Origin: Miniphocaeibacter halophilus | Lineage (GTDB): Bacteria; Bacillota; Clostridia; Tissierellales; Peptoniphilaceae | Length of the DNA: 64,000 nt | Assembly (NCBI RefSeq): GCF_016458825.1 | Contig: NZ_CP066744.1 | Coordinates: 687,001 to 751,000, forward strand | Reading direction: 5' to 3' | Shown here: positions 22,036 to 24,706 of the stretch, one piece after another | Layout of the letters: every line of letters starts with the position of its first letter | How positions within the stretch are numbered: position 1 is the stretch's first letter | Position numbers and translations under genes: made by a program | The notes under the pieces: generated by a model | Told to the model about the DNA's origin: nothing | Database searches by the model: none | Seen by the model: the letters and a program-made list of their open reading frames with translations, nothing else

Positions 22036-22068
22036 AAAAAGCGGCTCAAGTTACTTAACTTAAACCGC
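22036..22068 (-). terminator. Terminator of the queT-C26 operon
   Basis: On the minus strand an 11-bp stem (GCGGTTTAAGT with ACTTGAGCCGC, two G.U pairs) around a 6-base loop is followed by T5, ten bases past the last gene of the operon. Confidence 0.85.
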
Positions 22069-22077
22069 AAAATATTA

Positions 22078-22812
22078 TTATTTTTCTTCATCGATACTAT
22101 TTGCTAAGGAGCTAATATTTCCTATAAAATAGTCGAAAAGTTTGTAGAAATTTTTATTATGTTCCGGAAATTCCGGATGGAATTGAATTCCCATAATAAA
22201 CTGATTCTTTTCATATTCTATTGCCTCTATTATTCCATCATCTGCAGTCGCTGTAACCTTAAAGTCCTTTGCTACTTTTTTTATAGCCTGATGATGAAAG
22301 GTATTTACAACTAATGACGGGCCAAAAATATCATATAGTCTACTATTTTCTTTTATTTCTATATCGTGATAATAAATAATATTTTTGTTTTCTCTATCAC
22401 TATGGTTAAATACATCTTCTCTTTGGGAATAGATATCCTGATATAAATTTCCACCAAAAAATATATTAATTAATTGCATTCCTCTACAAATACCAAATAT
22501 AGGAATTTTTCTTTCAACTGCTTTTTCCAATAGATATATTTCAACTTCATCTCTTATTGGACTGGTACTTTCCAAATATCTGTTTGGTCCTTCCTTATAA
22601 AGATAAGGTGAAATATCAGAACCACCAACTAATATTAAGGCATCTATCATATTAATATACTCATCTAAAAATGACTTATCATAAATTTGAGGAATAATTA
22701 TTGGAATTCCCCCTGAATCAAGTACCATTTTGGAAAAATTATTATTGATTTCATGACTTATAAATTTTCCCCTATTTTCCAACCAACATGGTATTCCTAT
22801 AAACTTATTCAT
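22078..22812 (-). CDS. Gamma-glutamyl hydrolase-fold protein (peptidase C26), intact catalytic triad
   Basis: This 244-residue class I glutamine-amidotransferase-like hydrolase is of the PuuD/gamma-glutamyl-GABA hydrolase group. The nucleophile elbow is FGICRGMQ with Cys109. The catalytic His212 and Glu214 are in GIQFHPEF, and the oxyanion region is LVGGSDISPY. The family cleaves gamma-glutamyl amide bonds. It overlaps its upstream paralogue by 8 bases and is last in an operon headed by queT and a preQ1-I riboswitch. The substrate is unknown; a link to queuine/preQ1 salvage is inference from the operon. Confidence 0.88.
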   Translation of the reverse strand: MNKFIGIPCWLENRGKFISHEINNNFSKMVLDSGGIPIIIPQIYDKSFLDEYINMIDALILVGGSDISPYLYKEGPNRYLESTSPIRDEVEIYLLEKAVERKIPIFGICRGMQLINIFFGGNLYQDIYSQREDVFNHSDRENKNIIYYHDIEIKENSRLYDIFGPSLVVNTFHHQAIKKVAKDFKVTATADDGIIEAIEYEKNQFIMGIQFHPEFPEHNKNFYKLFDYFIGNISSLANSIDEEK

Positions 22813-23518
22813 TTTGAATACCTGCGCTTTCTATAAATTGATTAAACAACAACTTACTTTCTTCATTTAACATTCTGTCTATATTGAATTGAACTCCCAT
22901 TAAATAACTATTGCCCTTATATTCAATAGCTTCTACAACACCATCATCAGCTTTAGCAGATACTACTAAGTCCTTGCCTAATACATCTATTGCCTGGGTA
23001 TGGGAAGAAACTACAACAGTCCTATTTGTATTATAGGCCTTCTTTAATTTGCTACCGTCCCTTAGATTAATATAGTGCCTAGTTTCAGAATAATCTCGCC
23101 CAATATGATAAATGGATTTTTGAATTTCTTTACTAATATCTTGTATTAAGCTTCCTCCAAAAAAAACATTAATAAGTTGACAACCTCTTGATACTCCAAG
23201 TACCGGCTTTTTATATTTTAAAGCCATTTCCAAATAAGAAAACTCCGAGTAATCCCTGTCTAAATCAAAATTTAATATTTCGGTTTTAGGATTTTCTCCA
23301 TAATGAAAGGGATAAATATTTACTCCTCCTTGAAATATTAGTCCATCAACCTTTTTTATTAACGATTCGATAATATTTTTATCTTTAGTTATTGGTAGTA
23401 TTATTGGAATTTGCTGATTTTCTACTATTGTCTTTATATACGATTCCTTTGCATATAAGAGATTTGCAAAACTTCCTCTATTTACTCCCCCTACTATTCC
23501 TATTTTATATTTTTTCAT
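22805..23518 (-). CDS. C26-family paralogue with degenerate catalytic triad (likely pseudoenzyme)
   Basis: The 237-residue protein aligns along its length with the next gene's product (same ARGG-type loops, DDGVVEAIEY versus DDGIIEAIEY). The nucleophile position reads LGVSRGCQ with Ser110 instead of Cys. The His-x-Glu position reads GVQFNID, so His212 and Glu214 have become Asn and Asp. All three triad residues are changed, yet the frame is intact and both ends overlap neighbours (1 base with the PPC gene, 8 with the active paralogue). It probably has a binding or partner role, perhaps in a heteromer with the active enzyme. Confidence 0.85.
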   Translation of the reverse strand: MKKYKIGIVGGVNRGSFANLLYAKESYIKTIVENQQIPIILPITKDKNIIESLIKKVDGLIFQGGVNIYPFHYGENPKTEILNFDLDRDYSEFSYLEMALKYKKPVLGVSRGCQLINVFFGGSLIQDISKEIQKSIYHIGRDYSETRHYINLRDGSKLKKAYNTNRTVVVSSHTQAIDVLGKDLVVSAKADDGVVEAIEYKGNSYLMGVQFNIDRMLNEESKLLFNQFIESAGIQNE

Positions 23519-23937
23519 TATAGCTCCATTAAATTTAATCCTATTTCTTCATCAAAGAATCTGTTAACTCTACCATCTATTATTTGTATTATAATTTCAC
23601 CTGTTGCTGATATAATACCTTTATTTAAATGACCGCCTTTAGCAAAGTTTTCCTCATCTGAAAAAGTAACATGGGGATGAAGATATAATTTTTCATCTTT
23701 TGTAGTAATATTTCCCATTAAAGAAAGAATTTCCAGATGACCATTATATTCATTGGAAAAATATTCCTTTTTATCCGTATCAAAATATCCTACTTCAACA
23801 TGACTCATAGCTCCTATGCCTGTTAAAATTCCAAGTTTAATATTATTTTCTTCACAGGCCTTAATAATACTAGAAACTATTTCTTCTCCCTTTTCCAACC
23901 TTATAATTAAATGGGTTTTTAAATTTGTAGTTTTCAT
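23518..23937 (-). CDS. PPC (DUF296) domain protein
   Basis: This 139-residue protein matches the PPC/DUF296 fold. It starts with LIIRLEKGEEIVSSIIKACEENNI, then LTGIGAMSHVEVGYFD, then a His-rich strand LYLHPHVTF followed by GGHLNKG. In bacteria such stand-alone domains are trimeric and often bind a metal through the conserved histidines; the molecular function is not established. The ATG at 23937 follows GGAGG by 5 bases; an upstream ATG is less well placed. Its stop and the next start share one base (TAATG). Confidence 0.8.
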   Translation of the reverse strand: MKTTNLKTHLIIRLEKGEEIVSSIIKACEENNIKLGILTGIGAMSHVEVGYFDTDKKEYFSNEYNGHLEILSLMGNITTKDEKLYLHPHVTFSDEENFAKGGHLNKGIISATGEIIIQIIDGRVNRFFDEEIGLNLMEL

Positions 23938-23966
23938 AATATCCTCCAATTAAAATCCTCTTAAAG

Positions 23967-24506
23967 TTATTTACCCATTTTTTTAAAATTTATTGTTAAG
24001 TTTTTATTCTTAATGTTTAACTTTAAATAATCCACTAAAACTTTATTTTTAATTAACATTTTAAATATAGGAACGCCTATTAATGATACAACTATTATTT
24101 CGGATACCATTATTTGACCTGTTACAATTAAAACCCCTGCCTTAGAAACACCAATAAAATATAGCTGAATTCCAACTAAAATATTTGCAATTGCCGGAAT
24201 AATACTGGAAAGCCAAATATTTTTACATTTACTCATAAAATATGCTGCAAGAAAAGAAGCAAAAGTTCCTACAACAATATCCAGAACTCCGAAAGGACTA
24301 AATATATTGGCAAATAAGCAACCTATAGTAAGTCCCCAAATATATTCTCCATTAAAAAATGCAAGTAATGTTAAAGCCTCCGACAACCTAAGTTGTATAG
24401 GTCCATACGAAAGATTAGATAGTGGTGGAACTACTGTCATTAAAACATATAGGGCAGCAATTACACCTTGTCGAACAATAAATTTTGAATTAAATTTTTT
24501 ACTCAT
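23967..24506 (-). CDS. queT: QueT-family queuosine-precursor transporter (ECF S component)
   Basis: A 179-residue membrane protein with about five to six helices and the QueT signature YGPIQLRLSEALTLLAFF, followed by GLTIGCLFANIFSPFG and DIVVGTFASFLAAY. QueT proteins are substrate-binding S components of energy-coupling-factor transporters for queuosine precursors such as preQ1. The preQ1-I riboswitch and terminator directly upstream support this strongly. It is the first gene of a four-gene operon; no ECF ATPase or T component is in the window, so it would use shared ones. Confidence 0.9.
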   Translation of the reverse strand: MSKKFNSKFIVRQGVIAALYVLMTVVPPLSNLSYGPIQLRLSEALTLLAFFNGEYIWGLTIGCLFANIFSPFGVLDIVVGTFASFLAAYFMSKCKNIWLSSIIPAIANILVGIQLYFIGVSKAGVLIVTGQIMVSEIIVVSLIGVPIFKMLIKNKVLVDYLKLNIKNKNLTINFKKMGK

Positions 24507-24577
24507 AAAACACCTTCCTAAATAGAATTGTGTTATGACATCCAGAAAAAAAGATTTTACTAGACTCTTAATCTAAT

Positions 24578-24628
24578 AAAAAAAATAATAGGAAACCTAC
24601 TCGCCAAAAGACGAGATAGGTTCCCTAT
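24578..24628 (-). terminator. Riboswitch expression-platform terminator
   Basis: A long, near-perfect stem of about 18 pairs (24628-24610 with 24605-24588, loop TTTT) is followed by T8 on the minus strand, between the preQ1 aptamer and queT. Ligand-dependent termination would shut off the operon. Confidence 0.85.
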
Positions 24629-24632
24629 CACA

Positions 24633-24667
24633 TCTTGATTTTTAAAGTGGGTGCCAAGAAACACTTT
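24633..24667 (-). promoter_or_regulatory. preQ1-I riboswitch aptamer
   Basis: The 35-base element forms an H-type pseudoknot. Stem P1 is AAAGTG (24667-24662) with CACTTT (24649-24644). The loop TTTCTTGGCACC contains CTTG, which pairs with CAAG (24637-24634) after an A-rich joining tail. This is the layout of the class I preQ1 aptamer, with the C-A-C-C loop end and A-rich tail seen in known members. It precedes a terminator and a QueT gene, the classic target. Confidence 0.82.
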
Positions 24668-24677
24668 ATGCCAATAA

Positions 24678-24706
24678 AATATACCATATTATATTTATAT
24701 ATTCAA
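24678..24706 (-). promoter_or_regulatory. Promoter of the preQ1-riboswitch operon
   Basis: TTGAAT (24706-24701), 17 bases, TATATT (24683-24678) on the minus strand; the predicted start lies just before the aptamer. Confidence 0.7.

Follow-up and report, generated by a model that had tools for sequence, protein, structure and literature searches.

What does a cell gain by placing a PPC-domain gene and two Peptidase_C26 genes, one of them without its active site, behind queT and a preQ1-type riboswitch? The initial annotation of this locus had suggested that the three extra genes, if preQ1-controlled, may take part in the salvage of queuine or preQ1. We followed the question through the window, by which we mean the whole 64,000-nucleotide stretch of DNA analysed (C1:687001-751000 of a one-contig genome of 2.39 Mb), and through related genomes of its family, the Peptoniphilaceae, and of its order.

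The queT operon and its leader

All features of the locus lie on the minus strand, in the order promoter-like site, pseudoknot, terminator, queT, PPC/PCC gene, two C26 genes and a second terminator (Table 1). The gene coordinates bear out the arrangement first described: queT and the PPC gene are separated by 29 bases, the PPC gene overlaps the first C26 gene by 1 base, and the two C26 genes overlap each other by 8. Equally, no terminator-like site was found between the four genes, and one stands after the last gene. The proposed promoter fared less well, as a TG-extended site is indeed present upstream of the pseudoknot, but promoter-like sites in the region occur at the frequency expected from shuffled sequence, so that this one is weak by itself.

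Table 1. Features of the queT operon, in window coordinates.
Feature	Position	Strand	Evidence or remarks
Promoter-like site, TTGAAT-17-TATATT, TG before -10	24678..24706	-	weak alone
preQ1-I-like H-type pseudoknot aptamer	24632..24667	-	own model R1, E 3.5e-9; no Rfam preQ1 match
Antiterminator: AAGATG, overlapping the P2 3' strand, paired with CGTCTT around an inner GATAGG/CCTATC hairpin	24608..24636	-	partial-transcript folds
Intrinsic terminator, 20-pair stem and T tract, excludes the antiterminator	24574..24630	-	about -30 kcal/mol
queT, substrate-binding component of preQ1 ECF transporter	23967..24506	-	PF06177, E 1.2e-38
PCC/PPC (DUF296) domain protein	23518..23937	-	PF03479, E 4.3e-32; solved homologue 2dt4
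First C26 protein, catalytic Cys and His replaced	22805..23518	-	Peptidase_C26, E 4.4e-52
Second C26 protein, catalytic residues intact, gamma-glutamyl hydrolase type	22078..22812	-	Peptidase_C26, E 8.1e-65
Terminator 3' of the last gene	22041..22068	-	terminator-like site

QueT scores 133 bits against PF06177 (cut-off 33.7), which places it among the ECF S-components, and the PPC gene opens with an ATG after GGAGG and encodes a protein that retains the HxH and GGHL motifs. Upstream of queT, a descriptor search for H-type pseudoknots found AAAGTG-TT-TCTTGG-CACC-CACTTT-AAAAA-TCAAGA, along with similar elements ahead of many queT genes in the order. Its parts are P1 (AAAGTG/CACTTT), P2 (TCTTG/CAAGA), an A-rich L3 and a CC preceding the 3' strand of P1. 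A regular expression yielded 27 distinct pseudoknot sequences, from which we built the covariance model R1; in their alignment 91.6% of cells pair and the covariation score is 0.188 against 0.109 when shuffled, a comparison to be read with the caveat that kin sequences can beat shuffles. P1 shows the exchanges AU/UA/GC and GC/AU, and sliding the partner abolishes the signal. We counted 69 occurrences of the motif in the loci against none in 6.2 Mb of shuffled sequence; in 67 of 68 places queT follows in the same orientation, and the remaining one runs off its contig. R1 finds a single copy in the genome of the window, the one before queT, and has matches in 11 of the 12 genomes searched. A covarying pseudoknot upstream of queT is thus conserved across the order.

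The initial annotation had named this element a preQ1-I aptamer and had stated that a covariance search without a hit would refute its reading. No Rfam preQ1 model matched here, either at the gathering score or at E<=10, even when 66 bases were searched at the latter threshold, nor did any match the homologous leaders tested; as a control, the RF00522 model does match in B. subtilis. What stands of the claim is the conserved and covarying H-type pseudoknot, with P1, P2 and an A-rich L3 near a queuosine gene; UU after the 5' strand of P1 and an A-rich tail are both in keeping with the preQ1-I class. Published subtypes differ in the dinucleotide before the P1 3' strand, which is UC in type I and AC in types II and III (PMC11625349, a 2024 review); by these signatures our set belongs to none of the three, having CC in 27 of 27 sequences. 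Because Rfam gives no match and CC fits no published subtype, we assign preQ1 binding by association, and read the pseudoknot as a preQ1-I variant in the place expected for the class, with preQ1 as its predicted ligand. In other families of the order the same aptamer is followed by a RaSEA-like radical SAM gene and then by queT (L114:4284-5030, L120:4308-5054, L126:4295-5080); by analogy with the salvage operon of C. difficile (PMC11477304), this intervening gene is probably queL.

In folds of the full transcript the terminator takes the same CGTC that the antiterminator uses, so that the leader has the mutually exclusive arms of a transcription attenuator, one of them tied to the aptamer, in silico. 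When preQ1 is scarce, AAGATG would pair with CGTCTT, the antiterminator would form and the operon would be read; when preQ1 is bound, the pseudoknot would tie up CAAGA, the terminator would form and all four genes would be off. Both arms are visible in two genomes of the genus of the window (G001 and G002, genus g1) and in two of its sister genus (G032 and G130, genus g31), and in G013 a terminator stands immediately 3' of the aptamer. In G018 and G132, where no C26 pair lies behind queT, the aptamer abuts the ribosome-binding site instead, although this contrast is imperfect, some single queT genes also having a terminator (G019, G021). The P2 3' strand takes part in the exchange and the arrangement is common to related genomes; therefore, queT-PPC-C26-C26 is probably switched off as a unit by preQ1. 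The earlier view that a preQ1-type switch precedes an operon including the PPC gene and the C26 pair is upheld, and this regulation is well supported in silico, where we infer both the common transcript and the binding of the ligand.

Joint transcription would not in itself imply joint function, and the PPC and C26 genes could be passengers transcribed with queT and functionally unlinked to it, with a switch that matters for queT only. Consistent with this, PPC proteins of this family occupy a variety of unrelated contexts, many relatives that share the aptamer have queT as a single gene, and a promoter-like match overlaps the PPC start. We nevertheless consider it improbable, given that the order queT-C26-C26 is kept in three genera, mostly with start-stop overlaps, and that all three of these genera have a terminator after the aptamer.

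The genome of the window carries queA, queH and tgt, the product of the last of which inserts preQ1 into tRNA. No convincing queC was found in it: the weak QueC-like matches (about 30 bits, in frames of 320-400 aa) were read as ThiI/TilS-like paralogues. Nor was a QueL-like gene found in G000, G001 or G002, or in 9 of the 10 genomes with an adjacent C26 pair. With queA, tgt and queH present, QueC matches that are weak and no QueL-like gene found, the cell probably depends on imported preQ1, which fits QueT and its switch, and QueT would be the importer. The tgt gene itself, outside the window (L170:6062-7194; genome C1:2219085-2220154), consists of two overlapping frames split at the direct repeat GGTGGAATGGTGGAAT, apparently an 8-base tandem duplication that is either a mutation or an assembly error.

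The C26 pair and its active sites

The description of the pair as one live and one dead enzyme is confirmed by its motifs, which read GVSRGCQ and QFNID in the first protein (Cys to Ser, His to Asn) and GICRGMQ and QFHPE in the second, which keeps Cys, His-Glu and the fold (3fij, E 9e-40). Modelling predicts that the dead first protein keeps the PuuD/SpuA fold. The best solved relatives of the C26 proteins are Lin1909, PuuD and SpuA; we claim no specific substrate name for them, because the NCBIfam names score far below their cut-offs and were dropped.

Adjacent C26 genes of this kind occur in ten genomes of five genera: G000, G001 and G002 (g1), G013 (g12), G032, G131 and G130 (g31), G018 and G132 (g17) and G030 (g29). 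In a tree of 75 sequences the first members and the second members each make up a strongly supported monophyletic group, which marks the pair as old and co-inherited. Outside the family (f39), high-scoring C26 relatives stand as single genes in unrelated surroundings, and a tandem C26 pair in G386 was rejected as unrelated to this one. Beside the pair, the other two genomes of the genus have a small gene after it (L028:5474-5812, CMD family, and L029:7424-7759) that is absent in the window, and an azaaromatic (yjdF) riboswitch lies about 3 kb downstream of the pair in a Gallicola MAG (L028:8256-8350).

Which member is dead depends on the lineage. The first has lost its site in g1 (with Ser for Cys and Asn for His) and in g31 (with Gly for Cys), the second in G132 only (IRRG, HHQ lost), a fragmented assembly that is 84% complete in 70 contigs, and both members are live in G013, G018 and G030. 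With g1 and g31 sisters in the LipA+LplA tree and in the QueT tree, a single loss of the site in each member is enough to account for the pattern. The dead open reading frames are intact, and dN/dS for the dead against the active member is 0.085 against 0.033 (G000-G001) and 0.125 against 0.068 (G131-G032); the dead member is under purifying selection in both genera compared (g1, g31). The retention of the pair, the intact and constrained dead frames and the alternation of the loss between members by lineage together point to a heteromeric hydrolase that needs one working site, an association that we infer only from the pairing of the genes and the loss of sites. The findings would also fit a dead copy that acts separately, as a sensor or chaperone. 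In the literature searched, nothing relevant was found on class I amidotransferase pseudoenzymes.

Between queuosine and lipoate genes

The initial annotation had proposed a search for the same gene set elsewhere, and the set does recur, with queT-PPC-C26-C26 in three genomes of two genera (g1, g12) and queT-C26-C26, without PPC in the operon, in four further genomes (G002 and g31). The C26 pair thus adjoins queT in seven genomes of three genera. The recurrence is not confined to queT, however: in G018, G030 and G132 the pair stands before lplA-lipA, with queT at another place in the genome, and in G013 a run of seven genes, queT-PPC-C26-C26-lplA-lipA-queH (L092:2055-7026), has a promoter-like site before lplA and closes with a terminator. 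In g31, lplA-lipA-queH follow about 10-22 kb beyond the pair in the same direction. PPC also precedes lplA-lipA in G007 and G121, with the order PPC-lplA-lipA in g6. Of 130 family genomes only 29 have LipA, and these include all ten with the C26 pair. No preQ1 aptamer was found, by pseudoknot pattern or R1 model, before lplA-lipA or C26-C26-lplA-lipA operons. In the genome of the window two adjacent lplA genes precede lipA (L169:5112-7120). On a lipoate-queuosine gene cluster, the literature searched contained nothing relevant.

The C26 module is tied to two cofactor-salvage pathways, queuosine and lipoate. A dedicated role in queuosine salvage is not supported, because three genomes have the pair next to lplA-lipA and apart from queT, and G013 joins everything; the preQ1-related function first suggested for the PPC protein and the pair is accordingly unsupported, the pair having been seen only in genomes with LipA and PPC proteins being widespread in unrelated contexts. 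If the pair tree is rooted between its halves, the lipoate neighbourhood falls in both and the queT link in one of them, and queT would then be the later partner. In the LipA+LplA tree G013 sits elsewhere, with low support, so transfer is possible.

A new step of queuosine salvage, carried out by the C26 pair and the PPC protein, is possible: QueT would import an amide conjugate of preQ1, gamma-glutamyl or similar, and the hydrolase would release the preQ1, which is a primary amine. We do not prefer this step to a broader role of the pair in salvage, and consider it improbable. The seven genomes with the pair next to queT, which have the same aptamer in front, speak for it, as do the queH gene that closes the long run of G013 and the search for a QueL-like enzyme, which found none in nine of the ten pair genomes. 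The C26 relatives PuuD and SpuA, moreover, cut gamma-glutamyl amides of amines. Gamma-glutamyl-preQ1, on the other hand, was not found in the literature searched, most family genomes with queT have no adjacent C26 pair, and in G018, G030 and G132 the pair keeps company with lplA-lipA.

The distribution of LipA would also suit a pair that helps to acquire lipoate, or cofactors in general, for instance by cleaving lipoyl or other amides ahead of LplA, and that reached the queT operon by rearrangement. The direct order C26-C26-lplA-lipA in g12, g17 and g29, the distant lplA-lipA-queH genes of g31 and the PPC-lplA-lipA order of g6 all lend themselves to this explanation. It is weakened by the genus of the window, where the pair lies far from lplA-lipA and behind a preQ1-type switch, and by catalytic motifs that are those of gamma-glutamyl hydrolases, unlike known lipoamidases, and the co-occurrence with LipA is confounded by shared ancestry. 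We regard this explanation as unlikely.

Our preferred reading, held with moderate confidence, is a four-gene preQ1-attenuated operon that combines preQ1 import by QueT, a heteromeric C26 amidase and an accessory PPC protein. The two C26 proteins would probably form one amidase of the PuuD/SpuA gamma-glutamyl hydrolase kind, of which the second may cut and the first may be structural or regulatory, and the pair would act in the salvage or turnover of a small-molecule conjugate beyond the queuosine pathway alone. A bolder version, which we put forward as speculative and doubtful, is preQ1-controlled deconjugation, in which the half-dead amidase and the PPC protein would free preQ1 or another cofactor precursor from an amide, the same module would serve lipoate in related genera, and the switch would be a fourth, unlisted preQ1-I subtype.

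Comparison with known systems

With aptamers that resemble preQ1-I and stay invisible to Rfam standing ahead of queT across an order of salvage-living anaerobes, the distribution now known for the smallest riboswitch class, and its subtype rules, may have to be revised. Both C26 genes are kept even where one or the other has lost its active site, so that the pair offers a natural experiment on how pseudoenzymes work, and its links to queuosine and lipoate genes suggest a salvage activity not yet assigned.

The aptamer shares with preQ1-I riboswitches of types I-III (RF00522; PMC11625349) the H-type pseudoknot of about 36 nt, with P1 followed by UU and an A-rich L3, as well as the invariant C that comes just ahead of the P1 3' strand and the position in front of queT, and it resembles the type II element of B. 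subtilis in transcription attenuation. It departs from these types in having CC in place of UC (type I) or AC (types II and III) and a P2 of at least five Watson-Crick pairs, and from RF00522 members in that the leaders tested here are not matched by Rfam models. As an operon, the locus is comparable to queK-qrtT-queL of C. difficile under its PreQ1-I riboswitch (PMC11477304), which likewise couples a preQ1 switch to an ECF S-component and further genes in a salvage-reliant organism; here, the PPC gene and C26 pair stand where QueK and QueL are encoded there, and no QueL-like gene was found in the genome. The PPC protein has the domain and the HxH/GGHL motifs of the PCC/PPC (DUF296) proteins PH0802 (2dt4), 3htn and 2h6l, whose entries carry no established function, and differs from them in its place in a queT operon. 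Finally, the C26 proteins share their fold with PuuD/SpuA (6vtv, 7d4r, 7d50) and Lin1909 (3fij), and the second shares their catalytic motifs; unlike those enzymes, they come as a pair inherited together, with one paralogue clade for each member and loss of the site in one or the other.
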